From contig WHUZ01000027.1 in the NCBI GenBank assembly GCA_015179045.1, positions 186,001 through 250,000 of the forward strand: 64,000 nucleotides of DNA, written 5' to 3'. Below are positions 42,251 through 62,348 of the stretch, piece by piece; positions within the stretch are counted from its first letter, which is position 1, and each line of letters starts with the position of its first letter. This DNA comes from Kalaharituber pfeilii. Taxonomy: Eukaryota > Ascomycota > Pezizomycetes > Pezizales > Pezizaceae. The position numbers and the translations under genes are program-made. The notes below the pieces were generated by a model. It had not been told where the DNA came from, ran no database searches, and was given only the letters and a program-made list of their open reading frames with translations.

Positions 42251-42312
42251 TTTTTTTTTTTTTTTTTTTTTTTTTGTCACGTAACCCCGCATACAGGCTA
42301 CCAGCCTATGGC
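42251..42312 (-). mobile_element. Micro-retroposon, type A' copy
   Basis: A T run of 25 followed by GTCACGTAACCCCGCATACA and GGCTACCAGCCTATGGC, that is, the unit plus A tail on the minus strand. The middle GGCT-NNN-AGCC is a perfect small hairpin. No clear target-site duplication. Confidence 0.6.
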
Positions 42313-42338
42313 AAAGACCCATACCCAGGTAAGGTTAA

Positions 42339-42430
42339 GCAACTATCTATGCCCGGCCATGACGAACAGCTGCACGCGGGGTTACGTGATGGAAAAAAAA
42401 AAAAAAAAAAAAAAAAAAGCAACTATCTAT
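42339..42430 (+). mobile_element. Micro-retroposon, type A copy with perfect 12 bp target-site duplication
   Basis: Unit 42351-42392 (42 nt, GCCCGGCCATGACGAACAGC then GCGGGGTTACGTGATGG) plus 26 A. GCAACTATCTAT flanks it at 42339-42350 and 42419-42430. Confidence 0.85.
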
Positions 42431-42850
42431 CTACCACCTCTACGTAGGCACATTGGGCACCTAACGTACCCTCTGGCCGTATCCGCCAGCCCAGATCGAG
42501 GCCGGCGAACCATTCCTCGAACAGGTTGCCCTCTACTCCCTCCTGCCTCCACCCATTCTCCTGTAGGTCCTCCCAGCACAGCCAGGTGACTTGCACCTCA
42601 TCCCAATTCTTCCTCTGGGGCCGCTCCAGCTCAGCACACCTGAACAACACGTGCTCAGCACTCCATATCTCTCCACAGGTACAATGCGCTTCGCCCCCCG
42701 ATCTTCCTCCTCCACATCGCTCACCCTTTCCCAGTCCGTAGCCAGGTGTAATTTGTAAGTGCTCTCCTACCCCGCTTCACAAACTTATCCTCCTCAACAG
42801 TTAATGATTGTTGCCAGAATTGCAGAAGTAGGAAAGTCCTATATGATTAC

Positions 42851-42893
42851 CTCCCTGCCATGGCGAACAGCTGCAAGCAGAGGTATGTGATAT
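42851..42893 (+). mobile_element. Micro-retroposon, type A unit without tail
   Basis: CTCCCTGCCATGGCGAACAG then CAAGCAGAGGTATGTGATAT. The A tail and duplication are not visible, so it is an old or decayed copy. Confidence 0.5.
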
Positions 42894-43127
42894 TTAACTA
42901 GCGTTTTAGGATACCTTATCTGGGTTACACCACCTACCGGAAGATCAATTGAGGAAGTTATACCTGTATTGGTATACAATGGATATGCAGATTCTAGCGT
43001 TGATGGAGATCCACTATTCACAGTGCCTTACAGATGGGCTTAACAATAACAATCTTATTCCTTGCCACGTTTGCGAACCAACTGCATACAATCACCAAAT
43101 GTCAGAGAATACGATGCATTTGTACTA

Positions 43128-43286
43128 CAGTCGAGCCTCTCATGTTGGATCCTGTCATATTGGATAACCTGTCTTATTGGGTCCGCTTTGCCGGCCCAAG
43201 CTGGGCCGGTGGGGATTATTGGCTATTTTATCTTGTTGGATAAATCTCACCGGTCCCGGCCTTATCCAATGTTACAGGTTTGACTG
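43128..43286. mobile_element. TA-target pogo-like MITE, family CAGTCGAGCC, copy 1
   Basis: 159 bp flanked by TA (43126-43127, 43287-43288). The ends are CAGTCGAGCCTCTCATGTTG and, inward from the right, CAGTCAAACCTGTAACATTG. The inside holds GATAACCTGTCTTATTGGGT, shared with the copy at 43798. Confidence 0.75.
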
Positions 43287-43472
43287 TACTTGCTTGAACA
43301 TGGTCTCGACTGTCACAGTGCCATTGGTGGTACTGTAGCCACGCACCATGCACCATGCAACACATAACCCCAGCTTATATAACTCAGGACAATTCTTTGT
43401 CACCAACTCATCAGCGTCGACCACTTAGTACACCGCCGATCTGTATGAACTTGCCAAAATTTACAACACATA

Positions 43473-43512
43473 TATTCCTCGACTCCCTATAGAATTCCTC
43501 AACTCCCTATAG
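43473..43512. repeat. Tandem duplication of a 20 bp unit
   Basis: ATTCCTCGACTCCCTATAGA is followed at once by ATTCCTCAACTCCCTATAGA. No function suggested. Confidence 0.5.
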
Positions 43513-43570
43513 AGGACGGTTTTCAATGTATGGAATTCCAGAGGCCACTTACTGATGAGCATCAGACTAA

Positions 43571-43795
43571 ATGCTGCATCTCAAGCCCACAAACAAGTCA
43601 CTTTTACGTATGCCAAGTCTAATGCCTTGTGAAGTTGCGATCGGTAAAGATATTACCCCTGCCTCTGCAACTATTCTCCAGAATAAGTGCCACAATATCA
43701 GAATTATAATGATTGATGAAATGTCAATGATCGGGCAGTGGTTTTTAACATGGATTGATCGAAGAATTGGTTACAATAGAACGTCTACTGTCATG
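43571..43795 (+). pseudogene. Fragment of a Pif1-like (Helitron-type) helicase
   Basis: The frame contains LHLKPTNKS near the start and IRIIMIDEMSMIGQWFLTWI at about residues 43-62. This matches the Walker B segment (DE-x-SMIG) and following helix of Pif1-family helicases, common in fungal Helitrons. Walker A is missing upstream, and the frame runs into a MITE at 43798. It is a short relic and not a functional gene. Confidence 0.6.
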
Positions 43796-43797
43796 GT

Positions 43798-43913
43798 GGA
43801 AAACCTGTCTTATTGGATCAACTTGCGAATTGGGGCGGTAGGGATTATTCGATATTTGGTCTTATTGGGTAAACCCCGCTAGTCTCGGCCTTGTCCAATA
43901 ACAGGTTCGACTG
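43798..43913. mobile_element. TA-target pogo-like MITE, family CAGTCGAGCC, copy 2
   Basis: Shares AACCTGTCTTATTGG, GGGATTATT and the right end CAATAACAGGTTCGACTG with copy 1. TA flanks both ends (43796-43797, 43914-43915). The left terminal repeat is altered or shortened. It interrupts the helicase fragment. Confidence 0.65.
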
Positions 43914-44139
43914 TAGCATTTCCTGGCCGTCAAGTTGTACTAATGCTCGTACCATTGCGATGGCAGGCTTTATATAACCGCTGCCACTGGGGGATCCAAG
44001 AAACCAGGGCCTAGACATAAGGCAATCCTGCCGTGTTATTCCGTGAAAATTAACGAAGTCCTTCAAACCCACCATTCGATAGACAAAAGCAGCACGGATT
44101 AGCAAGACATGCTCTCCCCGAACTGTTAATCGGAGACTC

Positions 44140-44176
44140 TCGTAATAGCCCTTGGGGCGGCATACGAGTAATGATA
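44140..44176 (+). mobile_element. Micro-retroposon, type B unit without tail
   Basis: TCGTAATAGCCCTTGGGGCG then GCATACGAGTAATGATA. No A tail or duplication. Old copy. Confidence 0.45.
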
Positions 44177-44249
44177 CAGAGTGTTTCACCTAGAACCCGT
44201 CCAATACTGGGAAACTGCCCAAATTTACGGAACAACGTATGAAGCTCCT

Positions 44250-44321
44250 GTGAATGCAAATAGCCCTCAAGTGGGCTCAAATTAAAGCCAGCGCATGGAA
44301 GAATATCGTAGATTATTTTCC

Positions 44322-44370
<49 letters not shown>

Positions 44371-44500
44371 CAAAATATACCATATCAATGGGGACCTCTT
44401 CCGATATATATACAGCCCTTATGTTAGATATGCTCTGAGTCTCCATGTGTGGAAGAGCCTTACCTGAAGTCTTATGTACTCAATAAATACTCTATGTCAA
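44250..44500. repeat. Dispersed repeat, copy 1 of 2, highly diverged
   Basis: AAATAGCCCTCAAGTGGGCT and the following text resemble 52370-52600 (AAATAGCCCTCAAATAGGCT), with further similarity around GCTCTGAG and CCTACCTGA. A long T run (about 44325-44368) lies within this copy. The element type is unknown. Confidence 0.4.
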
Positions 44501-46030
44501 AGAGGTATAGCAAGCTTGGTAGTGACTGGACAGGGTACCACCATCATGCTTAGGTGGACATTTTGCCTATTTAGGTAAAGGGTAATACCAGGTAATTATG
44601 CAATCAAAGAAGATGAATAGAGACCATCAAAAGCTATGAAATGGCAATACATGTATAGGAAGATAATTTTGGAATAGCTTACGGCACTGGCTACTGTTTT
44701 GAGCAGTTTGAATACTATAGAATATATTTGCATAAACACCTAATTGCTCAGGATAACACAATAGAAGTACTTACATATTCTAGCAACTCAGCATTTCAAT
44801 GTAGGTCATCTGGGCCGGTCCAAGCCAGTTTCAGGCCAACTCTGGCAGTACAAGTCCACGGCAAGGCAAGTACAAGAGATACAGCAATAGCTAATCGGAT
44901 GGGCAGAGTTCATGTTTTTCACTCTAAGGCTCAGTCTTCATTCCCAATCCTCAGTGACTTGCGAGATCTGGACAACAGTGAGGGACCAGCCTTCACATAG
45001 ACTGACTTGGAAAAAACAGCAATGCTGCCAGCGGTAGGGGCCAGGAAGATGGGGACAACAGCCATTCGGGCGTTCATACACGGGGCAGCTGCATCTACAA
45101 TTCTGAGGTTTATTAGTGCAGTGGTGGAACCGGACTTTTGCTGAGGTTGCTGAATCTTTCCTGTCGGCAGAGAGACAGACTCGGATAGTTCTTACGCTGG
45201 AATATTTTCCCTTTTTTTTTTTCAATTTATTATTATATTTACTTTTTTCCGTTACCCATATGCAGCCCTTTTGGAATATGATGGAATGATATCCAGATGA
45301 AAATAGCTCCAATTTTCGCCTATTTGAAACCTTTCATATGAAGCATAGATGAACTAACAACTCCGATGCTGTTTCGCACAGCATCCACGTATATGTAAAA
45401 GTATGTATGTATGTACGTCTAAGTTACTGGGGGTTTCCTACTGAGGACGTGCCTGGGCTACATGGGCTGCATGGTATGGTCAGGATTGCATGGAATGATG
45501 GATGCGCGCATGCATGCAAGAGTGACTGCATAGCGCATGGCGGTGGCACGACAGAAGCTTCTGGTGTACGCAGAGATACAGCGCTTAAGGACTTAGATTT
45601 TGACTCGAGAATAGACATCAGAATATACTCTTTCATAGTCTCGTAACTAGACTCTTTCATGGGCTTTGTCCTTCACCATCGGCTTTGTCCTTTACAGGAC
45701 GTTCCGAGTTTTAGCTCATCACATTCTCTTCTAAAATGTATACTACTCGAGAAGCAATCAACAACATGAGCTCCATACCATACGGACAGCTGTTTATAAA
45801 CAGCGCTAAGCAGAAACAGTAAAACACTAACAAACTTTATGAAATAACGACTATGGGCTGTCCGCAATATCAAATCATGATTATCAAAACCGAGAGGGTT
45901 GATCTAAGTCCCGAGGTACGCTCTAGAGATCTTGAAAACTTTCATGTGCAGTAGTTTCAAACTTCGCCAATTTTTACTCAAACAACTCTTCTTTTACGTC
46001 CACAAATACCCTCTGCGATCTCTCAACTTT

Positions 46031-48100
46031 TCAGCTCCTTGGCCAGCCTCCCCCACTTCCTTTCCTGTTCCCACGAGGCCTCCAATTCTTTCCACTCCCC
46101 CTCAGCGGCCTATCCTCCAGCCTGGGTGGCCCTGTGCATCTACTGTCACCAGTGGTTGCTCCCGCAACGACACACACATCTTCCTTGACATACTTTGGCT
46201 CCTGCTCCTTGGGGTTGCCCATGCTAACGAAAATCGAAGGATCCTCGGGTCTTGAACGTTTTATCTGTTGATCTTCTAAAAGGTTGTTTTGCTGCTCATT
46301 AGTTGCCCTTTTTAGCTGAACTAACGATACAATCATGTCATGTGGTTGCTTGTATCGCTCAAGTCGCCATAGTTGCTTCTCCTTTTCCTGCTCTGATGCG
46401 GTAATGTCAGAAAGATTCCTCTGCTCATTAGCCTCCCAGCACGCAGTCTTTTCTTCCATTGCCTCTGATGCTCTGTTTGGTAAATTTGGCATCGGAGGCC
46501 GCCAGCAATCGGCCTTGAGGTGTCTTCTCCTCTCGTTAGGCCCCTTCTCATCAACTTTCCTGTTCATATTTGCTTTCTTAATACTCTCCATTGATGGTTT
46601 CCTAGGTAGATTTGACGCTTGTGCATGCGAACAATTTGTTTCAATGTGTTTGGAGGGTTTGAAATCCGGCTTTTGTGGAAGGGAGTGGCGCGAAGGTTCC
46701 ACAGGGCCCTTAATTTTGTCTACTGATCTGTGTACTTGCTCTACAGGAGCTGCAGGAACATTTCTTGTACGACCCTTCGATAATGACACAGCCAGAACGA
46801 GGTCCTTCCTGTGAAACAGTGGATTATTCTCCGGTTTTTCAGGGAGTTTGGCGTTCCCTGTTTTCGTCATTCCCATAGCAAACTCCAAATTGACGGTTGT
46901 ACAAGTTTCCTCTGCTTTCTTTGAAACTTTCTCATCTCTATCCTGAGAAGCTTCCTTTCCTTTAATTTCGTTTGTCTTTAAGGGCTTGGAAGCTTTTTTT
47001 TTTATGAGACTCTTTTATCTGACTCTCATCCGTACCCGACTCCTGGAAGCCATTTTTTTCCTCGTTGTGAGGCAAAGATTTGCCCTGGCCCTCCTTTGGA
47101 TTCTTATCAGGTTTAGAGCCCCCTCCGCAAATGCCCTCCTTTGTAGGCAATGAGTGTGAATCTACTCGTTTCTGCTCCTCCTGAGACGAAACCACTTTCG
47201 CCTGTTTTGCATTCAGCTCGTTAGAATCTTTTTGATCTTTGTGAAGCCACAAGTCCTTCCAACATCCTTTCGCAAGTTCGAAGCACGCATATGGAAGTGC
47301 ATTGCTCTGATCTTGGATAAGGGCCTTTGCTTCTAGATGCTTGCAGTCGGAGGTCCGAACCCAGTCGTATGTCATCATGCAGTGGCAATCAAGAGCAGCC
47401 GGTACGAACATGTACTTGCTGCTACGAAGCTCGGAGCAGCCCTTCATAGCTTCCTGCGCCAAGACATCAACTATTTTCATCAGCTCTGTTTGAGCACATT
47501 GCAGCTTGTCGTCCCCTGGATGCCGTGCTTGGATGTACGTTACGTACGCTGGATGGAACAGATATTCTTCAATCACATACGTCGGGTAAGTCATTCTGAG
47601 ACTAGAATTCGGAACCTTTAATGTTAGCAGTCTAGCTCCTCTGAGTTTTAAACTACATTCAACAGGCCTACTATAACGCACACAGCTTTGCTATCGTGAA
47701 GTACGTTGTTATTATCCCCCAAATAGAGTCCCCAGTAGCTGAAAGTGAAACCGACATCCAACGTCCCGAGCGTTTGCTTTTCATGAGGGTTACAGCGCCT
47801 TGTGGTGAAAAGCAGTACTGGTACTCCAGCAGAAAGCCCAGTGATTTTGGTGTTACATAGGGCAACGTGAATTGTTCGTGGAATCTCTGCTCTCGTCAGA
47901 GGATTCAGTGCTCTCTTCCATCGACTCAGCAAAGTGACTCCATTCTTTGGAGTGCCTCCAGCCTTTCTGTATTCGTTCCAGATTACATTGACGAACTCAG
48001 TGATACCTGGTTCTTCTAGATCCACGAGTTTTGTGATTTGTCGAAACTTGAGATTGTGGAGCCTAAAGCTTGCAGCTAGGCCTTGAGATTTTGTTGCCAT
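46031..48100 (-). pseudogene. Unknown gene broken by two small frameshifts (or with unrecognised introns)
   Basis: Three minus-strand frames follow one another almost without a gap: 48100 down to about 47690 (MATKSQGLAASFRLHNLKFR, including TRRCNPHEKQTLGTLDVGFT); about 47690 to 47000 (SLRMTYPTYVIEEYLFHPAY, ALDCHCMMTYDWVRTS); and about 47000 to 46031, a long Lys/Pro/Glu-rich tail ending NRKGSGGGWPRS. The first join falls in GTGTGCG, where one extra GT would shift the frame. The second falls in a run of ten A (46994-47003), where nine would keep it. The joined product would be about 690 residues: a folded N-terminus and a basic disordered tail. I do not recognise the family. Assembly errors, slippage or real decay are all possible. 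Confidence 0.5.
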
Positions 48101-50327
48101 CCTTTGATTTGAAGGTCCACTTATGAGTGGATATTCACAGCTGTCTCTGTGCTTTTGGTCGGGCTTTTTCGACGTTCCACTTGTTGTGATGAGGTGAGGT
48201 ACATCAGAATCAACTATTGCTATGCTACGATCCTAATTGTCCCGAGTGCAGCGGTGTTGCCAACACTGGGTATCCCCAGCAAAGCACCGCGAATTTTCAA
48301 CAATAGCAACCAAGAACTGTTCCGAGGAAGTGTTGCTAGAAGCCTAGAACAGAAAGATTTCGTGGGCGACATCCAAAGCTGTGGAAGAGCTCGTTTCGGA
48401 GAATTCTGAGAACAAGAATCAAACCTGTTGATTCTTATTAACATGCTGACAACCTGTGTCGACAAATATGATTTGTGTGTCCTTCTACTTGTATGTGCAG
48501 TTTTGCTCGTACGAGCCTGCTACCATTCAAAGATTTGATTGATGTATAGAGAGTTTCCTATTCAAGGGCCGCAAGTCTGGAGGGCACGGTTAGTGTAGGG
48601 GCACAAAAGTGTTCGGAGAAGCACCTATAGCAACTGTACGTCATGTCATTGAATTCATAACTAAGTGCGTGACCTGGTGTTCTTCTAGTTAAGGTTAGCT
48701 ATAGCGTTTCCCGAATCACAAAAGGTGCATGTGTGATTTCGTCGGCCACAGTCTCAGTCAATCTAGATGCGACACGTCATGGAATGTGTAGGAGTAGCCC
48801 GTTGAGACTTAACAAACAACTCGCCTGGTTTGTACGAGATAGCTGCGGTTAAAGAAGTTCAGCATTAAAGTTGCGTCAGCCTGCGATGGAACTGCACTGG
48901 CTGGGCACTGGACCATCCAGCTCAGTGCACGACAACTCATGAACTATGACACACGATTGGGGAAGAAGCCGTGACCATATACTGTACACATCAGTAGTAA
49001 TAACAGCTCAGACTATGTTGTTACTTGCCGGATTGGTGTACTTGTCGTTCTACTTGACGAGTGGCCGTGAGAAGCTATTGGATCAAGTAAGCGTTTATGA
49101 TTCATATTCCGAACTCGTATGCGGTGTTTCAACCAGCCAGTGCAACTTACCGGGGCCGGGCCTATCATAGCCGCAGTGAGACCAAAAGCCGGCCCCCAGT
49201 CCCATGCCAAGACCCCAACGCCCGGCCCACTCGACTTCTTTCCTAGAGGGGGTAACCCCGTTTCCTATGTAAGTCTTATACCGCGTATAGTCCCGGAAAA
49301 AGTGCAATAGCCAGGCACCGTCGGGGACGTTAAATAATAACAAGCTTGATGCACCGGGACGCCTCCTCCCACTTGCCTTACTATGTCCCGGCCTCGTCCC
49401 CAGCTACTGCCCTGCAATCGAGCACTTCTAGATTCTGCCCCTTATTCCCAACCTCCATAAGTACTAGACCCTTGACTGGGTATATATTATGTCAAGTCTA
49501 CAAGACTTGCGACACGCAGCAGGACACCGAACCCTCTGGGAACCTGCAAATTTAGTATTCCTAGACATCAGTTTGCATCAAGCTATGTACAGCATTACAA
49601 CCTTCTTTAGTTGGACGTCCTGAACTACGGTAGGTTGAGACTGAACGATAATGGCTGCTGAATATGACCTTTATCCCACTATCACCGTTTGGATTCTACA
49701 TTGAACGAAAAAGCATCGAGCTCCAGCGAAGATATCGCCACTCTCTTCCTGCCTTAGGCTTCCTATAAATTTGGAATCTTTGAATGGAACGTGGCGCCCA
49801 GCACCCGAACGGATCTCGGTTAAAACAGGACATATACCTAGAAAGGGAGCACATTATAGGCAATGGGCATTGCTGCCCGCAAAAATTCCTAGAGTGGGCT
49901 GAGTTCAAGGTCATTGGTATAGGCATAAAGGACAGTAAGCTACAAAGCGTGCTGCAACATGCAGATGTACATTGCAGGAGGCAGAAACTGATTTTGAAAG
50001 TTGAAGTCGATAACCGAGACGCATTGGCGGTTCGCAGAATAAATTGCAAGACTTTGACAAAAGTGGGAATGCTCAATGGCGCGGTCCATAAGTCTCGGCC
50101 GGCTCTGTAGTACTGCATTGCTATTTAATATCACGTTGTAGCATGAAGTTTAAAACAGTGTCTCCTCCTAACTACTTAGACTATTAACATATGCGTGGGG
50201 ACGTTGAAGAGGTCTTGTTTCAAAACTGAATGCTCTATAAAACTATATTGCCAACTTGATAACGTATCTACAGCTAGTTCGAATATATTTCACGAGGTAT
50301 CGGACCGACTGGCTTGACCTCCTATTG

Positions 50328-50400
50328 TAAAAAGTCCAGTATCCTGCAGTGCATCTTGTTAACCGTAATACTTAAGAGCGCTAAGCTACTGGACTTTTTA
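50328..50400. repeat. Short inverted repeat, 14 bp arms
   Basis: TAAAAAGTCCAGTA (50328-50341) and its exact complement TACTGGACTTTTTA (50387-50400) bound 45 bp. The right arm overlaps the possible target duplication of the A' copy that follows. It may be a tiny MITE or a chance hairpin. Confidence 0.4.
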
Positions 50401-50448
50401 GGGGGGTCAGTCACATAACCCTGCATACAGACTACCAGCCTATGGCCG
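50395..50448 (-). mobile_element. Micro-retroposon, type A' copy
   Basis: TCACATAACCCTGCATACAG then ACTACCAGCCTATGGC reads as an A' unit on the minus strand, with only a short T stretch as tail. CTGGAC occurs on both sides (50389-50394, 50449-50454), a weak 6 bp duplication. Confidence 0.5.
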
Positions 50449-50541
50449 CTGGACATATTTGGTATGTACTCAGTACAAAAGAGCATACAGTACATCCATC
50501 AACGATATCTCTGCCCCAAAGAAGTTATAGCTAACGGTGAT

Positions 50542-50641
50542 GTGAGAACACAGTTTTTTTTATTTTTTTTTATTTTTTTTTTTATTTTTATATCAATACT
50601 CGCATGCCGCCCTATGGGCTATGGCGAGGTGAGAACACAGT
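50542..50641 (-). mobile_element. Micro-retroposon, type B copy with perfect 13 bp target-site duplication
   Basis: GTGAGAACACAGT at 50542-50554 and 50629-50641. Between them lie a T tail interrupted by single A residues and the unit TATCAATACTCGCATGCCGC then CCTATGGGCTATGGCGAG. Confidence 0.85.
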
Positions 50642-50861
50642 GTTGACAACTGCAGGCCTTGATTCAACGATACTAAGTGCTGTATCGGATTGTCATTGAT
50701 TCTACAAAGGGGCAGCCACAGTAAAGGCAAGTTCGTCGTTTGGCGTGGAATGCTCTGAGTGTATTGGCCTTAAATTGGCTAATTTAGAAAATTTTGGCTA
50801 TGTAACCTAAACAATAGTCAGTGAATACAGTGTACAGAACCCCAAAACTTACCTTATAGAA

Positions 50862-50870
50862 GATCGACCC

Positions 50871-50912
<42 letters not shown>

Positions 50913-50955
50913 CAGTGATCGCGTGCCGCCCTGTGGGCTATGGCGATGATCGACC
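50862..50955 (-). mobile_element. Micro-retroposon, type B copy with 8 bp target-site duplication
   Basis: GATCGACC at 50862-50869 and 50948-50955. The T run is about 37 long, followed by ATCAGTGATCGCGTGCCGCC and CTGTGGGCTATGGC. Confidence 0.8.
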
Positions 50956-51313
50956 AAATGCCTGCTCTTGAGCTGACAACCATACCGACAACGGGGAGCG
51001 GAATTATGGTGCACGGTTCTGAAAGTAGTTCTCTGCCAATGATTGAAAAATTTTAGAGTTGTTCATTAAACCATTTAGCACGTAATGGAGTGATAAAGAT
51101 GGATTACGGAACTTTATTCTTCTTCTATAACTTTTTTTTAGAATAAAAAAAAAGAAAAAGAAAACGGACAAGAGAAAATATGCCTTAAGCTGCGTATAAG
51201 TGATCATGTAACAACTAGCAAGCCAGTGTATACTCGAAGTTTGTTCTTTTTTTCGTCGATGGTTCCTTGGATGGGGAAGTCGCAATAGCGTAAGAAATCT
51301 GCCCACGTCTGGT

Positions 51314-51730
51314 TCAGTTTAGTAAAGTCAGCATAGTCTGCTCATCAGAAAACTCAAAGTACATATTCTCTTTACCATCTAAGAGGGTGATAGCTCGGGG
51401 TGTGGGAGGGAGGTTTGGGATGATATTGTTATCTAAAATTCGGAATGTCTCCAGTCGAGCAAAGGGGTCAGCCACTCTTAAATTCATGTGCCAAGCGAAA
51501 TTGTTTTGTTCACTTGGTCAAGCATCAGTAAAACGTCCACATTGCCTCAAGAAACGAAATATATACGTTCGAAGGAAGAGATTAGTAACAGTGTCTATGA
51601 TATTACCCATTCTCGCGTCGAGAGCACACATTCTGGTGTCAATATTATCGAGTCTCTCAATGACATTCTCCATTGCGGTCATAAGGTTGAGCGTTGGAAT
51701 ATTCGGAGTTTTGGAAAGCTCGGCCCCCAT
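51314..51730 (-). pseudogene. Unknown short gene with one in-frame stop
   Basis: The frame opens MGAELSKTPNIPTLNLMTAM, passes a heptad-like helix (MENVIERLDNIDTRMCALDA), reaches TGA at 51518-51520, and then continues in the same frame with NNFAWHMNLRVADPFARLET, PNLPPTPRAITLLDGKENMY and a stop at 51314-51316. A helix followed by a segment about I-P-x-x-P-P-T recalls the fungal Mug135-like repeat family; that link is a guess. The stop could be removed by an intron I could not define. Confidence 0.4.
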
Positions 51731-51802
51731 AAGCCTATTAAGCCCTAAACCTTGCTGTAGATGCTTGAATTAGGTAGTTCAGCTTCAGCCATTCTTGTAA
51801 AG

Positions 51803-51985
51803 AGGAGTGGTGGAGAAAGAACTGTGATGGTGTTCGAGGGCAGTGTACAGGAGACGGTTCAGGATAGATGGCAGTATAGAACAGACAGTCCAAGATATAC
51901 TATAGTATTACACAAGAGACAGTCAAGTATAGGCGTAGAGGAGTAGTGGAGAAAGAACTGTGATGGCGTTCAGAGAGCAGTGTAC
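51803..51985. repeat. Direct repeat of about 46 bp (51803-51848 and 51938-51985)
   Basis: Both copies share GTGGAGAAAGAACTGTGATG and then AGCAGTGTAC-like ends at about 85% identity. They lie just upstream of the broken minus-strand gene ending at 51314. Confidence 0.5.
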
Positions 51986-51990
51986 TGGAT

Positions 51991-52069
51991 CGTGAAGCAT
52001 CTTTTTTTTTTTTTATATATATCACATGACCCCGCTTGCAGCTGTTCGCCATGGCAGGGCAACGTGAAG
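51991..52069 (-). mobile_element. Micro-retroposon, type A copy with 7 bp target-site duplication
   Basis: CGTGAAG at 51991-51997 and 52063-52069. A T run of 13 and TATATATC lead into ACATGACCCCGCTTGCAGCT and GTTCGCCATGGCAGGG. Confidence 0.7.
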
Positions 52070-52203
52070 GAGTCCGATGTTGATGACCTGGTAATATACG
52101 GTTGGAGGATCGGTGCAACCAGACTAGGGAAACGGCTCTTATGCTAAGAATTAATCCCCCTCGAAAAAGTCATAGCCAGCCTTCCTATCTAAGTAATATA
52201 ATA

Positions 52204-52258
52204 AGATTTTTTTTTTATATCACTACTCATATGCCGCTCTGTAGGGTATGACGAGATT
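52204..52258 (-). mobile_element. Micro-retroposon, type B copy
   Basis: A T run followed by ATATCACTACTCATATGCCG and CTCTGTAGGGTATGACG. AGATT occurs on both sides, too short to be sure of a duplication. Confidence 0.55.
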
Positions 52259-52359
52259 AATTACAGAGGAAATAAATAGAGAAGCTAACATGTACAAAGA
52301 TATTGCGCACAGCAAGGTATTGCGCATTTTCTGGATGTCACAACAAAAAATTCCTGTCA

Positions 52360-52610
52360 GTTTAAATAGCCCTCAAATAGGCTCGAAATTAAAGCCAGAT
52401 CACGGCAGAAGATAGTGAATTATCCTCTGCATATTCATTAGGTCAAGTTTTAGCAGAGAGTAGTGACCTATTTGGTAGACACCAAAGCCAATGCTGGACA
52501 CACTCTGAGCACTAGCTGCCACGTGCCAATGATCCTACCTGAGATCTTATTCATCTTGATGTATACTCTATTACCTATGCTGAAGAAGTATAGAATCATA
52601 CAGTTCCTGC
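52360..52610. repeat. Dispersed repeat, copy 2 of 2, highly diverged
   Basis: Resembles 44250-44500, best over the first 70 bp. Type unknown. Confidence 0.4.
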
Positions 52611-52997
52611 TAAACTTCTAGATGTCTCGCCGGTATGCTACTTTAGGATGTACTTAGCGGCTAGTTCAACAACGGAGTTTCCATATTTGATAGAAGTACC
52701 TTGTGGCTGGTGCAGAAGACCAGGCCTGGAGCATACTAGTATGTGCCTAGAGTTCATATCAATCAGATCCATTAGGTGAAGGTGCGAACGACTGGTAGTT
52801 GGGGGCACGACCCTTACCGCGCTTCAATAAATAGGCGCCATATAAAAACAGCCAGTTTTTCCGTAGTTGCACATGTTATCAGTTGTTCACAATGCAAGCG
52901 TCCCTAGCTTCTGAAACCGGTGGCTGATATACTACCTATAAGCATTGCAACACTTGAACTGCTGATTGGGGGGCCCATAATATATAGACACTTCATA

Positions 52998-53077
52998 GCC
53001 TGAGTACTACCCTGCCATGGCCACGTGCTACAAGCGGGTTTATGTGATTTAAAAAAAAAAAAAATTGCCTGAGTACT
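52998..53077 (+). mobile_element. Micro-retroposon, type A copy with perfect 11 bp target-site duplication
   Basis: GCCTGAGTACT at 52998-53008 and 53067-53077. The unit ACCCTGCCATGGCCACGTGC then CAAGCGGGTTTATGTGATTT has 14 A behind it. The middle has diverged from other A copies. Confidence 0.85.
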
Positions 53078-53973
53078 GGAGCGGCTAAGCACCTTGCTCA
53101 ATATCTTTAGAGACCATGAATGCTCTCTTACTTTTGGATCTTCATTACATTCATTTTTTGTGTTTATTTTCATCGGTCTCTTGCAATACCGGGCGTTTAG
53201 TGCCATTTGCGATTTACTTCAATTGTACAGTGGAGCTTAGCTGTGGGGGGAAGGGTTGGGGTTTAAGTGTGATTTCTGGATCGTGATTTGTATGGACTTC
53301 TGTCGTTGGATATCCTGAGCTAGAGAACAATACTTCAGTGGACCCATGCTTGCTAGGGTATGTCAGTAATGTCGGTACCTGGGGAGCACGGTGGAGTAAG
53401 GTTAGTGTGGATGCAACCCTTTGCCGGTTAATCATGCACCGATACAATGTATGCAGTGATTTACAGCCAAGGGGGTTGGGCGGCTACTGCTGTCTTATGG
53501 AAATTTAAATCAAGACATAGACAGGCAAGTGAGGATTATTCTCGTTGGGCGAGCATGCTATTTTGCAGAGGTCGGATTAGGTCAAGGAAGGATGTGGGAT
53601 GTAACTCCACACTACATACAAGTACTACGGTGGCTGCATGCAAGATTCCCGGCATCGGGCCACTAGGTCGTTAATGTTGCTGAGGGTAAATATCTTACCA
53701 TTATCACTACTAGTATCTCCATACTTAGCCTCTGGTGTAAGAATCTTCAGTGATGACCGGTAAGTACAAGTAGAGAACTGGCAGAACAGATACGCAAGAG
53801 TGAAGAAAAAACAATAAAAGATACGTATCGTTTCACTTGTAAACAAACCATGCAAGATCAGGCTCATACAATAAACATAGACGACAAGAATATTATATCA
53901 GGAAGGTTCAACAATCCAAGCCTCTGTAGGCACACTAAGAGGTACATCAGCCTTAGCCCCAAGCTGGTGGTGC

Positions 53974-53989
53974 GGGGGGGGGGGGGGGG
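53974..53989 (+). repeat. G homopolymer, 16 nt
   Basis: Pure G run in otherwise ordinary sequence. With 32587-32611 it is one of two long G runs in the window. Confidence 0.8.
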
Positions 53990-54890
53990 ATACGGCAAAG
54001 CACATCTGGGGCGAATGCAGAACCTGGAGGAGGGCGGGAGGGACCCTCTGGAGGGGATGCTGGCGTGGACGGCGCCATGGGTGGGAAATATGGTTGCGGA
54101 CGGCTTTAATCAATACTTCATTTGCTTACTAATACAGCCCTTTTCTTTTCTTTTTTTTTTTTTCGTTCTTTAATCCCCCTTCCTTCTTGGTATGAGACTA
54201 CTTCCTTCTACTAGCTAGTAAAATACGGAACACCATCCTCGCCCTCTACTGTGCAGCATACCATGCCTCTTCACTTCGCTCCCTTGCCTCCTACTATACA
54301 TTTCGTTGAACGATTTTGGTGTGCAGCAAAATATTATGCGCATGAGAACTATCAATATAACTTTGAAGATTTACGTGTACCTGCTGCTTTACATTCTATA
54401 AGTACTGCTTGCTATTATGAGCACTATATACGACTTCTTAATGCATACTCCAATGGATATACCTATGCAACTAAACAATTTCAGAAATATGTATATAAAA
54501 GTTATTAGCAAGTGGTGAATAAAGAACTACATATACTTTAGACTTGACTTTTAAGAAATTTTTTCTTGCTTACTAAGACATAGTCTTACCTAATTTGTAC
54601 TAGTCGAATGTAACTCAGATCCACCAAAATTTGCTCTTCTTTAACTTTCAATAACTGTTTTACAAAAATTTGCAAAATTAAAAACACAACATAGATTGGT
54701 TCTTTGCTCAATTCTGTTCATATCTATATGCAGTCTGACATTTTTACGACTTTTGTTGTGTTCTTATCGAGTTTTGATATTTAGGATCATAATGTGTTGA
54801 GATAAAGGCGTCCGCAACCATATTCACTTGCTTGTTGGTTCAGGGTATTAATTTGGTTACATTATGTTATCTTTTATCTTTAACCTTAAT

Positions 54891-54943
54891 CCCGCCATAG
54901 CCTACATGGCGGCATGCTTTTTTAAAATAAAGAAAAAAAAAAA
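54891..54943 (+). mobile_element. Micro-retroposon, type B copy, decayed tail
   Basis: CCCGCCATAGCCTACATGGC and GGCATGC, then a degenerate T/A-rich tail. No clear duplication. Confidence 0.45.
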
Positions 54944-55278
54944 TCAGCCCCAAGCCATAACGCCACAATAAATATCTGTGAAGATAAACGATAAGCACAG
55001 TGATAACAGTAACCAATAAGAAACAAGTCCGTATGGGTGGCAACCGGCTTGCCGCCCCCCCAGTGGCGGATAACAGCTCAGATGTACGTACGCCTATTTT
55101 CCAACAAAGAGCTTGTATACTGTAATAAATAATATGATAGTTGGGGTGATTGAATAGAAAACCAGGATATTGCCACCAGACATATTTGTTACTTATGACG
55201 TTGTCACGAGCTTGAGTTTGCCATACATGCAATCATACTTAGCTAAACAAAGACATGTATGCAACTGAAGTCAGCCCT

Positions 55279-55366
55279 AGAGCAACAATGTTTTTTTTTT
55301 TTTTTTTTTTAATTTCACGTGACCCCGCTTGCGGCTGTTCACCATGGCAGGGCAGAGCAACAATGT
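55279..55366 (-). mobile_element. Micro-retroposon, type A copy with perfect 13 bp target-site duplication
   Basis: AGAGCAACAATGT at 55279-55291 and 55354-55366. A T run of about 20 leads into AATTTCACGTGACCCCGCTT and GCGGCTGTTCACCATGGCAG. Confidence 0.88.
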
Positions 55367-55606
55367 GATGACAACTAAACATGACGACAATTCAGCCTAT
55401 ATCTTGCACCATCTTGTGTATTTTGCACCATCGCAATATGTACGAGGGAATGTTGAGTGCTGCGAGTACGGAGTGCGAGAAGTGCGAGAACGATTGATTG
55501 AATGATTAAGTACACAACAGAATTGTTATATCCACCTATTTCAAAAACAAAGAAAAACAAAAAATCCAACAACCGAAGCAAAGAACCCATTCTTCCCACG
55601 AGATAA

Positions 55607-57001
55607 CTAGTCAACCATGCTAGTCGCTAGTTGCTTCGATTCATCAAACACGACATTAGTCGCATTGAATACCCTTTTACTTACTGGATCCCATACTCGC
55701 CACCACTTAGTGTTATTGTGGTTGTATCCAATGAATATACAACGTTTGGATTTGAACTGTTGTTTACCACCTCGTTTCCGCTTCGATTCTGGTATAGATG
55801 CATAGGCCGTGCAACCAAATACTCGTAGGTGTTGTAGGTCTGGTTTCTGGGCATACCATGCTTCGTACGGTGTTTGCATTTCCAGTGCTCTTGTAGGACT
55901 TCGATTCAGAATATAGACTGCGGTGGCCGCTGCCTCCGCCCAGAATTCGCTCTCTAGCTTTGCCCCACACAGCATACATCGAACCATTTCCTCAATTGTA
56001 CGGATTTTGCGTGAACTGACACCCCTCTGATGGTCGATGAATGACGCAGAGGGTTCAAATATGATTCCGCTTTGTTGTAGGATGTTCGTGAAGCTTTTAT
56101 CGTCATAATCTCCAATTCCATTATCACACCGGAATCTCTTAATCTTCCTCCCATGCTGGTTCTCTACCATCGTCGTGAATTGCTGAAATGCATCACACAT
56201 CTCCCTGCCAGCCTTCGACTTTAATGTATATAACCAGCACATACGGGTCAAATCATCAATATATATGATGAAGTAACGAGATCCACCAAGGGACATGGGA
56301 AAAGGACCGGCGAAAGCTGAGTGAACAATTTCCAGCGGTTCCGTAGCACGAGTGGAGGGAGTTCGATTGATATTAACCTGCTGCTTGCCTTGAAGACATG
56401 GGCCACATGCAGGTTTGTTGGCCGTGTCCACACAGGCAGCTAACACTGATATGCCTGTTGCTTGGCCATTAGCTAAGGTTTCAACTGAGGTGGTGTTGAG
56501 GTGCCCGAGCCTCCGATGCCATAGATCGAGTGTACCGGCTATAGCGGTATAGGTCTTGCTAGACTTCAAGAAACTGGCTTCCGATTTCGAGAGATAGGTG
56601 AGATGCAATCGATATAGGCTGTCCTGGCTATTGGACTCGAGAAGCAGCGTCCCATCTGAAGCCAGGATAGAGCACTTTCCACCACCGAACCTGACCCTGC
56701 AGCCAGCTTGGTCAGCTTTAGCTACAGAGAGGTAGTTACAGCCAAGTTTTGGGACGTAAAGGACATCAGAAAGGGCAATAATGGAACCCCCATGGCCTCT
56801 AGCATAGACAGTTCCAATAGCCGTGGCCAATAAAATGCGACCGTCCGCTAAAGGAACCAGACGAGGCTTGGATAAGGTTCGAACTGAGTGAAAGGCTGAG
56901 AGGGTACAGGCAATGTGGTCAGTGGCCCTTGATGCGATGCACCACAGCTTTCGAGAAAGTTGAGCCTGCGGGTGTGAACCGTGTGATGTTCGAGCAGCCA
57001 T
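55607..57001 (-). CDS. Copia-type gag-pre-integrase/integrase ORF with missing catalytic residues
   Basis: Uninterrupted frame of 464 residues from a Ty1/copia polyprotein. Residues 20-30 (WCIASRATDHI) sit at the protease active site, where the usual Asp is Ala23. Residues 158-202 are the integrase zinc module with His162, His167, Cys199 and Cys202 intact. Then comes the core: HSAFAGPFPMSLGGSRYF has Ala229 at the first catalytic Asp, CDNG keeps Asp293, and QRGVSSRKIRT has Ser330 at the catalytic Glu. The end, NATNVVFDESKQLATSMVD, stops before reverse transcriptase and RNase H, which are absent. The frame is open a little upstream of the ATG. No LTRs were recognised. It is either a decayed fragment that happens to be open or an inactive, possibly co-opted protein. 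Confidence 0.85.
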   Translation of the reverse strand: MAARTSHGSHPQAQLSRKLWCIASRATDHIACTLSAFHSVRTLSKPRLVPLADGRILLATAIGTVYARGHGGSIIALSDVLYVPKLGCNYLSVAKADQAGCRVRFGGGKCSILASDGTLLLESNSQDSLYRLHLTYLSKSEASFLKSSKTYTAIAGTLDLWHRRLGHLNTTSVETLANGQATGISVLAACVDTANKPACGPCLQGKQQVNINRTPSTRATEPLEIVHSAFAGPFPMSLGGSRYFIIYIDDLTRMCWLYTLKSKAGREMCDAFQQFTTMVENQHGRKIKRFRCDNGIGDYDDKSFTNILQQSGIIFEPSASFIDHQRGVSSRKIRTIEEMVRCMLCGAKLESEFWAEAAATAVYILNRSPTRALEMQTPYEAWYAQKPDLQHLRVFGCTAYASIPESKRKRGGKQQFKSKRCIFIGYNHNNTKWWRVWDPVSKRVFNATNVVFDESKQLATSMVD

Positions 57002-58569
57002 GGCTTCGCGGCTATGGGCGGCTGTATCACCCTCTGTCTTGTGAGGCTGTAGCGTGAGATCTTAATTTGCTCTGAACCGGTAGAAATAATTTGAGGATTG
57101 ATCTGATCGGACAGGAAATGTAGCAGATTATATAAATAGTTCGGCTACGCTGGAGGGCAGCAAAGCAGCGTTCAATGATTAAAGCACATCATCTAGCGTT
57201 GAAAATAGGCGTGTAGCGGTATGGCATGTGTCATGGCGTGCGCCCTATTGCACCTGAGTTGGCCGCAAAGCGTTCCGACCCGTACGCCACTGGATACCAT
57301 TGGCCAATATTGCATTGACCTATTCGATCTTGCCGAATGTTTCAAACCGCTTGATGGTTCAACATGGCAGGGACCCGAACCATTCAACGGTTGCAATGGT
57401 TGATTTGGAGCTTGAGCTGTGATTATGATGTACTTTCTTCTCGAATTCTGTTGCATGAATAGGGCCGTTTTTTGGACGCTAGATTAGAGTCTGAGCACGA
57501 GAACAGGCTTTCATAAGAATGAAGCAACTTTATTCCACCGCATTAGCTCTGCCGAACGATACCTCAATAAGGGTGTTCAAAATAACAGATTCTTAATGGC
57601 TATTGAACGTAATATTTTCATGTTAAAGTGTAGAATTTTGAACAGTCTTCTTCGGCAACTTGCCAGCCATCTGGCTCTTGGCACAAGTTGACCCCTCGCT
57701 TGTTCAAAAGTATTCGGACACCAGATGTTGCATACATACGAGCCATGCGCTTTGGGAGTAGCACTATATGCAACATTCATTCCCATGAAAGCAGAGAATT
57801 TGAATCAAGGTATGCATTGAATTAGGCGTACGTACACCCGAGTTGCCATCCGCTGTGAAAGAAAGCGCGCCTACTACTACTACCGTGCTGACGCTGGGCT
57901 CAGACGCCGCAGGTCACGAGGGGCATATGGTGATATAGGCAATGCTGGGTCACATACACACGGTGAGGTAAGCCAGCAGCGTGGAGATGCTTAGAAATGG
58001 TGATGTTGCACAAACTGGTATAAGAAGTTCTTTCTACCTTCTTCATCTTTCATCTTCATCTTCATCTTTCAGCCTTCCTATTCACTGTTTACTCATCTGT
58101 TCATACTCGTTTTCCATTACCTTCAACCTTTCTACAGTTATGTCTTTCTGATATTGGTTTCCGCACTTGCTATACAGTCAAACAACTCTCGCTTATGCTC
58201 AGTAATCTTCTCCATTCAACTACCTGATACTGCCTTCACTTCCTCCCTGGCCCAGTGGCCTCCCAGCAGAGGACCCAGTGCGTAGAGTAGTGGAATTAAG
58301 TGCAGCGCGCCTCACGCCCATACCGCCACTGTGTGGCTTGTTGCATTCTTTTCTATTGGTGCTGTTATGATACTTTTCTTACCTCCACATAAGTTTTTAT
58401 GGCTTGAAGGCAAACCTGCACGATGGTAGTCTGGTTCGAGACTGCTGCACTATCTTTGATTTCCGCTTATTTAAAACTTCATTATTTATACTAGTACACT
58501 ACCTTCGACATTTCAGATTCTTGTTGCCTTATCATTATTCATGTATATAAAGTCAGAGTCTCTTGCAAC
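57002..58569. other. Intergenic region beside the Copia fragment
   Basis: No gene recognised. A flanking LTR was looked for and not found. Confidence 0.4.
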
Positions 58570-58647
58570 TCTACATTCAGCCCTGCCATGGCGAACAGCT
58601 GCACGCGGGGTCACGTGACAAAAAAAAAAAAAAAAAATCTATATTCA
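58570..58647 (+). mobile_element. Micro-retroposon, type A copy with 10 bp target-site duplication (one mismatch)
   Basis: TCTACATTCA at 58570-58579 and TCTATATTCA at 58638-58647. The unit CCCTGCCATGGCGAACAGCT then GCACGCGGGGTCACGTGAC has an A tail of about 18. This is the cleanest A unit in the window. Confidence 0.82.
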
Positions 58648-58810
58648 ATATGCGAAATTAGGTTGATACATAATTAACAACTTTCCTTCAGTATGTAAGT
58701 ATACGTCCAAACGCTTAAAAACACTGCTGATGGCGAATTGAAGGTCCTCATGTCCACCATTACAGTCTTGTATTCTCTCTAACTTTCTTGGCCATCATTT
58801 TCAACTCAAT

Positions 58811-59523
58811 GGGTGCCTTCCCCTAAGGGTTTATGTGAAATTCAAACCGCGGCTTTGAAATAAAACCGGGGTCCGTATCCCTGTTTTATTGTTTGGTAGA
58901 GTGTTTGAAACAATTTTTTGAAAGAGGGGTACCCCCCCCTCTTTCAAAATACTCACTTGAATAAACAATAAACAATAAACTACAAAAGCAGTTAGTTAGA
59001 GTACACTACTGCTGAAGTAGCATAGTTTATAATAACTATACCATATAGAGGATATTTAGATTCACATTTGCATCATTTGCACTAGTCTTGCTTGCATATG
59101 TAATATCCAGTAATGCATTCTTATCCTCCAGCGGAAAATTTTTACTGAGAGTTCAGCCTCCTTCTCTTTCGCTTTTTAGATACATTGGTACTTGACTGCT
59201 GTTTCTTAAGACCTAGTCCTCTCTCTTGGAGCTTGAGAGCTCATGCTGTCTTTTGTAGCGGATTGACAGCTTGTTCACTGGCTTACTTACTAGTAAAATA
59301 TGTGTTCGGACATAGGGCATAATGTGCATTAGTACCCCTGTCCGAATACATATTTTATTGGCTAGTATAATTTCTGCATTTAAGGTGTAAATATCTGCAT
59401 AACAAAAAGTTTTCTAGATTTATTATTTTCAAGTGCTTAGAGAAACTACCCCCTGCTTGCGGTGGAAATGTACCCTGATAAAATTTGGTTTGAATTTCAC
59501 ATAATCCTTAGGGGACGGCACCC
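58811..59523. mobile_element. DNA element with 37 bp terminal inverted repeats
   Basis: The left end GGGTGCCTTCCCCTAAGGGT plus TTATGTGAAATTCAAACC is matched by the complement of GGTTTGAATTTCACATAATC plus CTTAGGGGACGGCACCC at 59487-59523, with few mismatches. The element is 713 bp with no transposase. The flank AAT appears on both sides. It contains three internal palindromes, listed as a finding. Confidence 0.8.
59288..59367. repeat. Palindromic insert, 80 bp, inside the 37 bp-TIR element
   Basis: TACTAGTAAAATATGTGTTC GGACA on the left pairs with TGTCCGAATACATATTTTAT TGGCTAGTA on the right. It looks like a tiny nested MITE. Confidence 0.6.
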
Positions 59524-59530
59524 AATCCCC

Positions 59531-59560
59531 CGAAACTTTAGGGTGGCATGCGAGTAATGA

Positions 59561-59596
<36 letters not shown>
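59531..59596 (+). mobile_element. Micro-retroposon, type B copy
   Basis: CGAAACTTTAGGGTGGCATG then CGAGTAATGATATATATT and an A run of about 28. No clear duplication; the left flank is the end of the adjacent TIR element. Confidence 0.6.
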
Positions 59597-59599
<3 letters not shown>

Positions 59600-59894
59600 T
59601 GATAACCTATCCCTCTAGCAGGAGCCGCATGACCATTCCTCAGTACATAATAGACAGTACATACCGCACCACCTCCAAAAGTGCAGTGTCCGTATACTTT
59701 TGAACCAGCGAGTATCCGTCCATCTTTATCTCTATTCTCGTATCATACCCACTTTATTGTGATTGTCAACCAAATTTCAACACGGGGGGTTCAGAGTTCA
59801 GTCACATTCATCTGATTTATATTTCCATGAGGGATACAGAGCTTCTTGATAAAATCTACTTTGAATACCCTTAATGGGGCGCATGGCCAATTAA

Positions 59895-60438
59895 TAGAGG
59901 GATTATGCTTGCACCAGGGATGGTTTGCAGAGATAATCAAGGACGGCTGCGCCACACGCTAGAGAATCCTATGGTCTGGATTTCCAGGGCTGGATCCCTG
60001 GAAACCACCGCTTTTTGTGCCCCATCTATCTTCACCAGTGTTTACTCAATTTTCATTCTGAGAGTTGAGATCGATTCAGTGAACTGATTCACATAGTAAA
60101 CCAAAAATCAGGGAGTGCCTGACGATGTTGAATTGTGATACATGTAGTTCAAAGGTGCTCCATTTTCATGGGAGCAAATGCCAACACTACGGCCTATACT
60201 GCCTACACCAAGTTACCAGTCCTGTAGTAGTAGTCATAGCACACCCGCAGTTATGATCTAGTAAGCTTTGGATTGAGTTGCCAGATTAGTAGGTTGGAGG
60301 CTGGGCACGAAGCGGAGAAAAGCTGGAGTATCCCTGATACAGCAAAAACTCAATTGCAATTCTTGCTATTCCCAGGGTTGTGCCACATGTTAAGGGCTTT
60401 ATCCCTGATAAATCCCTGGTACCAGCAAAATCCCTCTA
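59895..60438. mobile_element. DNA element with about 28 bp terminal inverted repeats (hAT-like ends)
   Basis: The left end TAGAGGGATTATGCTTGCAC CAGGGAT pairs with the complement of ATCCCTGGTACCAGCAAAAT CCCTCTA at the right. 544 bp, no transposase. The TAGAGGG ends resemble hAT elements, but an 8 bp duplication is not visible. Confidence 0.65.
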
Positions 60439-60493
60439 ATTCATAAATATGATATACAAGGCTAGTGGTATTTTTGTCTCTTTGGTACTTAAC

Positions 60494-60525
60494 CTCGCCA
60501 TAGCCCGTAGGGCGGCATACATGCA
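60494..60525 (+). mobile_element. Micro-retroposon, type B unit without tail
   Basis: CTCGCCATAGCCCGTAGGGC then GGCATACATGCA. No tail or duplication. Confidence 0.45.
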
Positions 60526-61235
60526 TAGCTCAGCAGTTAAGGTAGCCCTTGGGGAAGAGGGTTGTCTACAATCGTTTCAAAAGATGACTGAATGCTCCGG
60601 TCATGAGACTAGCTCCGGTCCCATATGAAGAAATTCTAGTGAAACTAGCGCAACCTGTTTTCATTTTTGCTTCCTTTTTTTTTAATGGTCAGCCAACGGG
60701 GTTTTATAAGCTGTGCCCTTCGGCATGATATGATGAGGATGGCAAGTCTTTGGGCAGATGTGACTGCCCTTCATCGATACACGTCTGGACCTTTGAATCT
60801 GATTAATCTATTTATGAGTTTGGCTTGCTATGGTTCTCCCTTTTTTTCCTTCCCTCGCGAGAAATTCGAGTACGTATTTGCCCCATATGATTGCTGTAAG
60901 AAACAACGAGCCCAGGCACTCAACTTCCTCTGCACTAATACCTAGACCAAGTAAGTATCTGCTCTCATGTCCCTGCTTCTACTAACCCAATCCACTTTCA
61001 ACTGCCTGTGCATCACTCCTTCATCTCAATATCACCGTTAGCAACACTGGCTGCGTCCACAAGTCTGGGAAGCATGCCTTAATAGAGTGTTGATTGAATC
61101 ATACATTCAGTTTGCAGATAGCATTGTAAATTATTAATGTTTTCAACAGGTATTAAGGCTCTGTAATTGAGCAACACATTCTTGTGCAAGTTCCTCGCCT
61201 ACTAGTGGACAGAAGGTTTCTTTGCCGAGGCCGTT

Positions 61236-61285
61236 GAAATGAATTCCAATATCGCAACAGCCCTCAGGGTGGCATGGGATTAATG

Positions 61286-61333
<48 letters not shown>

Positions 61334-61342
61334 AATGAATTC
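61236..61342 (+). mobile_element. Micro-retroposon, type B copy with perfect 11 bp target-site duplication
   Basis: GAAATGAATTC at 61236-61246 and 61332-61342. The unit is 61247-61290 (44 nt, ATCGCAACAGCCCTCAGGGT then GGCATGGGATTAATGATATT), with 41 A behind it. Confidence 0.88.
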
Positions 61343-61459
61343 GAAGGATGTTTCCTTTCACCGCTTAATTGTGAGACTGTGTTGGTAGCGACAGTTGTGC
61401 GCCAACGTCCATCAGTACGACTAAAAGAGGATGCTGCAGCTCCTGGAAGATCGCGAGGC

Positions 61460-61538
61460 CGCCTTGGTCCTTTTTTTTTTTTTTTTTAATTTCACATAAC
61501 CCCGTGTGCAGCTGTTCGCCATGGCAGGGCGCCTTGGT
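61460..61538 (-). mobile_element. Micro-retroposon, type A copy with perfect 9 bp target-site duplication
   Basis: CGCCTTGGT at 61460-61468 and 61530-61538. A T run of 17 leads into AATTTCACATAACCCCGTGT and GCAGCTGTTCGCCATGGCAG. Confidence 0.85.
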
Positions 61539-62270
61539 GCATGAACACAGGGTTTAGTGTCTTGGTATTTTTAACCTGAACAGAACTCAAACCGTGCGTT
61601 GGCCCGAAATATGTGGGAAGGAGGAGATCCCATGAGAGTTGCTGTAGAATAATTGGAGAACTACAAATTGTCGTAAAAAGCTCGTGTAACAGCCTTGGGA
61701 TGGCGGAAAAACAATGCTCAAGTAGTAGAAGTTAAATGCTGTAAGTTCGTAGATACTAAATCAAAAGCCTCTTCGGCTTTCCGGGGTCCTTTATAGGCGG
61801 CTGCTGCCCGAGTCGCCCTAACCATATGCTTCCACTCTATATCGCTTGTAACCGTCCGGAGTCAGAAGAGAGCCGAGAAGGACCATCACATTGAAAGGGC
61901 ATAGATCATATGAAATCAGTAGTTGAAGGTACTACATTCCCGAATAAATAGTCCCACACGAGTATAATCAGATGACAGTAAACCTCTTCTTTCAACCTAC
62001 TTACTCATACACCATTCGAGAGACTGATGAAGTAACGTACGAATACACATAATCCAGGCTTTCGTCTATCCAACAGGTGCCGTAAGTATTTAAGCGACTG
62101 CATCGGCGATTATCGGGTCTGTAGATGGCGTCTAACTTTCCGACCTTGGTCCACTCCAATTACTAACGAGCGATGGTTATTGAAGATTAACATAGGTAGC
62201 TTACCTCCTCTGGAAGAAATCGTTGCACCAAATGGTAGGTCAGCAAAGTTGCATGCTATGCAAGAAATTC

Positions 62271-62348
62271 ATTGAAGATGTTGATTTTTATTTATTTATT
62301 TTTTTTCTTTGTTAATATCATTAATCGCGTGCCGATTGAAGATGTTGA
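62271..62348 (-). mobile_element. 5'-truncated micro-retroposon, type B, with perfect 14 bp target-site duplication
   Basis: ATTGAAGATGTTGA at 62271-62284 and 62335-62348. Between them are a T-rich tail and only AATATCATTAATCGCGTGCC G, the 3' half of the B unit. Confidence 0.82.

Follow-up and report, generated by a model that had tools for sequence, protein, structure and literature searches.

The DNA considered here is a 64-kb window of the Kalaharituber pfeilii assembly, which comprises 78 Mb in 360 contigs and which we scanned as a whole, and our subject is a population of stem-loops of about 40 nt, ending in poly(A), that crowd one end of the window. Host genes and a single hairpin copy lie in its first 42 kb, and 18 copies in the stretch from 42 to 63 kb. 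Within 42251-62348 nhmmer called 17 copies at 9 bits or more, and one further copy at 62316-62335 (6.4 bits) was counted in because it is flanked by a 14-bp duplication. The first-pass annotation had described a swarm of about 20 copies of one unit in this interval; the swarm is there, at 18 copies, and in place of the single unit we find three hairpin types, namely A, A2 and B, with A3 as a loop variant of A. Read in the sense that ends in poly(A), hairpin A is (R)CCCTGCCATGGCGAACAGCTGCAMGCGGGGTYACGTGA, A2 is (T)CCCTGCCATAGGCTGGTAGCCTGTATGCGGGGTTACGTGA and B is (C)CTCGCCATAGCCCATAGGGCGGCATGCGAGTAATGATAT. The features of the window are as follows.

6848-9049: PRP6 splicing factor, 89% identical to Peziza echinospora PRP6, with four other matches at 91-92%
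25377-25412, plus strand: hairpin B copy, outside the interval of the first-pass annotation
42250-42314, minus strand: hairpin A2 with poly(A), the 3' end of a longer remnant of a long interspersed nuclear element (LINE), not hairpin-only
42351-42416, plus strand: hairpin A with poly(A), hairpin-only; 14-bp duplications at 42337-42350 and 42417-42430; empty site in A2-LINE copy L086
42489-42701, minus strand: C-terminal ORF2 piece of an A2 LINE, 71 amino acids, 70% identical to L070
42853-42889, plus strand: hairpin A copy without poly(A)
44139-44176, plus strand: hairpin B copy without tail
50411-50447, minus strand: hairpin A2 copy without tail
50555-50628, minus strand: hairpin B with A-rich tail, hairpin-only; 13-bp duplication 50542/50629
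50870-50947, minus strand: hairpin B with poly(A); 8-bp duplication 50862/50948
51998-52062, minus strand: hairpin A with poly(A); 7-bp duplication 51991/52063
52217-52255, minus strand: hairpin B with short poly(A); no duplication found
53009-53066, plus strand: hairpin A3 with poly(A), hairpin-only; 11-bp duplication 52998/53067
54892-54918, plus strand: partial hairpin B
55291-55353, minus strand: hairpin A with poly(A), hairpin-only; 12-bp duplication 55279/55354
58580-58637, plus strand: hairpin A (CC variant) with poly(A); imperfect 10-bp duplication (9/10)
59533-59563, plus strand: partial hairpin B, then poly(A); no duplication found
60494-60525, plus strand: hairpin B copy without tail
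61247-61331, plus strand: hairpin B with poly(A), hairpin-only; 11-bp duplication 61236/61332
61469-61529, minus strand: hairpin A with poly(A), hairpin-only; 9-bp duplication 61460/61530
62285-62334, minus strand: hairpin B truncated inside the hairpin, with A-rich tail; 14-bp duplication 62271/62335

The exact duplications of 9-14 bp that had been reported hold for seven copies, the truncated one at 62271 included, and those given as shorter or imperfect, at 50862, 51991 and 58570, prove to be of 8 bp, of 7 bp and with a single mismatch (TCTACATTCA versus TCTATATTCA at 58570), respectively; no duplications were found around the remaining eight copies of the interval. To gauge chance, 20,000 random 9-mers were drawn from the window, and 22 of them recurred at a distance of 45-110 nt downstream. 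We no longer treat all copies as independent units, since the one at 42251 forms the 3' terminus of a LINE remnant. Unit 42339 is nested inside this remnant, in the 3' untranslated region (UTR) of an A2 LINE, and it is because this nested unit (hairpin from 42351) intervenes that the ORF2 end lies 173 nt upstream of the A2 hairpin at 42250-42314.

The hairpins are abundant throughout the genome. Pattern scans of the assembly with up to three mismatches, whose counts take in long copies too, gave 3,696 matches (1,862 + 1,834) to a 22-mer of hairpin A, 4,795 (2,408 + 2,387) to a 30-mer of hairpin B and 896 (445 + 451) to a 28-mer of hairpin A2, and the reversed-pattern control gave 0 matches genome-wide for each of the three. 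A sampled set of 96 loci of about 3 kb, together with the window, yielded 235 distinct copies by nhmmer once copies with identical flanks were collapsed, and 0 matches of at least 10 bits when the same sequence was reversed. On these controls chance repeats were dropped as an explanation.

Several features indicate how these units were inserted. Counting as a duplication any direct repeat of at least nine non-A bases found both after the tail and upstream, we find duplications around 109 of 214 tailed copies at the sampled loci, as against about 7 expected when upstream flanks are swapped. Their lengths vary from 9 to 15 nt, and the units carry poly(A) at one end, on which two grounds a miniature inverted-repeat transposable element or other DNA transposon was dropped as a candidate. 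A search for empty sites, made with 50 copies, returned many rows that were self-matches of one flank or tandem repeats; from it we claim seven filled/empty pairs, in each of which a hairpin-only copy has a related locus with one copy of the duplication and no insert, so that filled and empty sites differ by the hairpin, the poly(A) and one duplication copy. The poly(A), the variable duplications and the empty sites bear out the earlier proposal of target-primed reverse transcription, in which LINE-type elements are copied from RNA at the site of insertion. Hairpin-only and long copies moreover resemble one another in duplication length (11.8 nt, n=50, and 11.4 nt, n=59), in the frequency of a pyrimidine before the duplication (82%, n=50, and 80%, n=59) and in their tail lengths, which overlap.

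Judged from sequence, the hairpins form the 3' termini of longer elements of LINE type. In 19 loci the C-terminus of an ORF2 bearing RNase H (Pfam RNase_H, 1.3e-15) lies 63-109 nt ahead of hairpin A2; a related ORF2 end precedes hairpin B in 12 loci, at 92-215 nt in nine of them. ORF1-like frames stop 131-229 nt before hairpin A in nine loci (L013, L014, L016, L028, L029, L031, L032, L035 and L068) and 41-237 nt before hairpin B in 12; two of these frames were scanned and neither had a Pfam match. At these loci short units share hairpins A2 and B with ORF2-bearing LINEs, and hairpin A with long elements in which only ORF1-like frames are seen. The long elements whose last frame is ORF1-like, at nine A and 12 B loci, are perhaps ORF1-only derivatives of LINEs. 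LINE endonuclease matches number at least 150 in the assembly, and 22 of the 150 scored lie in frames of more than 1,000 amino acids. The short units themselves are non-coding, occur in many copies and have the LINE tail in common, and presumably depend on LINEs. Two observations had been named in advance as telling against a separate class of very short retroposons. One, that the units are the 3' ends of longer LINEs with many copies, is what we see; the other, that the duplications are no commoner than chance, is not.

What sets the short units apart is where they begin. A count seeded by a 14-nt signature of the 3' end followed by poly(A) (213 matches, none in the reversed sequence), in which duplications of 9 nt or more defined the left ends, placed 29 of 50 A left ends at -3 to +5 relative to the stem base, with 0 inside the hairpin, 5 at 6-150 nt and 16 beyond. 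For B (n=56) the corresponding figures were 17 at the stem base, 5 inside, 12 at 6-150 nt and 22 beyond. Neighbouring positions would lead one to expect 0.5 (A) and 0.7 (B) in this 9-nt bin. When copies that had recruited their own locus were set aside, along with short loci, 21 of 25 A left ends fell at the stem base and 4 beyond 150 nt, and 12 of 40 B left ends fell at the stem base. The pile-up (29/50 and 17/56) agrees with the first-pass annotation, which had held that the left end is defined and not a product of random truncation. The base that precedes the stem in short copies is also nearly constant within a type: 15 of 18 A copies have G there, all 4 A3 copies have A and 7 of 8 B copies have C; short A2 copies are scarce (4), and all 3 of them that have one extra base show T. 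From this constant extra base it seems that the transposed piece starts one base ahead of the stem.

Folded alone, the hairpin types form a stem closed by their first bases (CCCTGC/GCGGGG or CTCGC/GCGAG). The folding energy of A2 is clearly better than that of shuffled sequences (z -2.6) and that of B somewhat better (z -1.7). The stem of B also covaries. In an alignment of 81 distinct copies (81 of 84 references, the last three in the list being omitted, prefiltered at 12 or fewer mismatches to the consensus) pairing is kept in 93.3% of pair cells, and there are 42 doubly changed cells versus 16.2 +/- 2.8 in shuffles that leave the relatedness between copies in place (0/500). Double changes fall at five pairs versus 2.9 in the shuffles (29/500), and the outer pair is C-G in 40 copies and A-U instead in 26.

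A rarer class of about 78 nt comprises three stem-loops, and in the four rows with an accepted duplication its left ends range between -4 and +2 relative to the first stem. We distinguished subfamilies at 100 listed places, using CAGGGR as the mark of LINE-like upstream sequence. CAGGGR is found upstream in 25 of 55 TT places, 2 of 19 TC, 0 of 3 CT and 1 of 23 CC (TT versus CC, Fisher p=0.0004); at least one of the TT places scored as lacking it, L016, is in fact a mismatched LINE copy. The CC variant of A has 99 exact copies, 87 of them lacking the CAGGGG of the LINE-like upstream sequence. CAGGGG precedes the other 12, 10 of which are three-stem-loop units (four of the 10 representing one duplicated insertion) and two of which are not. 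The 3' UTR of LINE-A was not found in the 75-250 nt upstream of these 12 copies and two near matches. Of 23 exact copies of the TAA variant, two are accompanied by CAGGGR and another three by CAGG(T/C)G. Since CC and TAA seldom have LINE-like upstream sequence, some subfamilies exist mostly as short units, although a rare LINE of CC or TAA type may yet lie elsewhere in the genome. We note that two related loci, L010 and L012 (about 1448-1600, minus strand), contain a piece resembling the three-stem-loop unit, a hairpin A and a second hairpin A head to tail, as if units had inserted into one another.

The explanation we favour, with moderate confidence, is that a 3' stem-loop of about 38-42 nt plus poly(A) can be inserted alone, by LINE-driven target-primed reverse transcription of RNAs whose 5' parts have been trimmed away. 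Decay enzymes such as Xrn1 can stop at RNA structures. Decay in the 5'-to-3' direction, or cleavage, of LINE or SINE RNA would halt at the terminal stem-loop, whether structured or protein-bound; the hairpin-poly(A) RNA left over would serve as template; and the LINE ORF2 protein would recognise stem-loop and poly(A) much as in LINEs of the stringent type. The three-stem-loop class, which starts at or near the base of its first stem, would obey the same rule.

Several observations weigh against trimming of this kind. Among B left ends, 5 of 56 lie inside the hairpin and 34 of 56 at least 17 nt upstream, and the copies cut inside the hairpin, including that at window position 62285, imply that ends are not set by the stem base alone. 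In long A copies the base before the stem is mostly A (6/10), and in short A copies it is G, so that most short A copies did not come directly from the sampled LINE-A; in this base they are closer to the three-stem-loop units, which have G. Ahead of hairpin A the sampled loci showed only the ORF1-like frames and no ORF2 end. The folding energy of hairpin A is no better than that of shuffles (z -0.4 to -0.8), and hairpin A2 refolds once 35 nt of upstream sequence are included. Lastly, duplications were accepted in 4 of 12 three-stem-loop rows, with a caller that tolerated one mismatch.

Trimming might also go a step further. It is possible, if doubtful, that the hairpin has become a headless, self-propagating retroposon of one stem-loop, in which decay intermediates ending at the LINE-tail hairpin are the mobile template and no promoter of its own is needed. 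If so, any transcript with a hairpin and poly(A) could seed copies, and the CC variant would be a lineage of this kind that lives on with no LINE of the same type.

The main rival to trimming, which we consider rather unlikely, is abortive target-primed reverse transcription, in which the template is a long LINE RNA or that of a short interspersed nuclear element (SINE) and the enzyme releases it after copying the anchoring stem-loop. That A, A3, A2 and B have the same boundary is what such release would give, and the base before the stem agrees between long and short B copies (C in 17/22 and 7/8); moreover, the sequence upstream of B is U-rich, without an obvious barrier. Abortive synthesis does not, however, readily account for a short-to-long ratio that differs by subfamily (CAGGGR at 1/23 CC and 25/55 TT places), and a three-stem-loop class that stops at or near another stem base would not be expected if the enzyme let go after the last hairpin.

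It is less probable still that the short units represent a SINE that has a small gene and promoter of its own, an RNA of about 78 or 40 nt being transcribed from source loci. The CC and TAA variants, mostly without LINE-like upstream sequence, and the near-constant left end of the 78-nt form would fit such a gene, and the second stem-loop of that form holds a B-box-like match with two mismatches to the consensus. This match is weak, however (11 of 200 shuffles have as many matches), and absent from the 40-nt unit, and a single gene fails to explain one boundary in four hairpin types. No transfer RNA (tRNA) genes were found in eight loci and the window; against Rfam, nothing in the window reached the gathering score, and four loci gave no relevant match. 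On these grounds, and with nothing 5' of the 40-nt unit, an origin from tRNA, 5S or 7SL RNA was dropped. That the hairpin is simply what is left of ordinary LINE copies, dead on arrival and truncated at scattered 5' points, is very improbable, for although long B left ends are spread broadly (17-1074 nt upstream), the pile-up at one boundary is far above neighbouring positions in both A and B.

LINE/SINE pairs with a common tail are already known, fungi included (PMC3747384, PMC5135761, PMC5063351). In stringent-type pairs, such as eel UnaL2/UnaSINE1 and the zebrafish ZfL2 system, LINE and short element have a 3' stem-loop in common, as they do here, and the ORF2 proteins of such LINEs bind the cognate tail stem-loop (PMC5135761, PMC4176376). 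Unlike SINEs of the UnaSINE1 type, which have a 5' part derived from tRNA or another RNA, the Kalaharituber hairpin has nothing 5' of it. Fungal SINEs with Tad1- or LINE-like tails include Mg-SINE and SINE2-1_BG (PMC3747384) and AfuSINE2 (PMC5063351); they resemble our units in being non-autonomous and in having a LINE-related 3' end and target duplications, but they are tRNA-related, with an RNA polymerase III promoter, and AfuSINE2 measures 140-493 bp. The hairpin units are also like 5'-truncated LINE copies, which coexist with them here (B), in their 3' end, poly(A) and duplications; the truncation points of such LINEs are usually scattered, whereas the hairpin units have one dominant boundary. 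In the open-licence literature, as far as its accessible excerpts go, we found no report of hairpin-only retroposons; older and closed literature lay outside this search.

The window contains other repeats and frames. Two imperfect copies of an unrelated repeat lie at 43152-43270 and 43788-43899 (78-84% alike in two aligned pieces), and stretches that look similar by eye, both starting AATAGCCCTCAA, lie at 44261-44325 and 52363-52430, the first continuing into a poly(T) of about 50 nt. On the minus strand, 55607-57001 is a Copia-type fragment (GAG-pre-integrase, integrase core and SH3-like domains), and 46031-46888 and 46962-47681 are long open frames, neither of which matches Pfam.

Hairpin-only units would rank among the smallest retroposons described. 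Which piece of RNA is enough for the reverse transcriptase of a LINE, and what determines where an insertion stops on its 5' side, are open questions that could be tested here with sequence counts and an RNA of about 40 nt. The thousands of natural insertions in this genome would mark the limits of the smallest template that a LINE can use and, if decay intermediates are indeed the templates, RNA turnover would itself supply mobile elements.

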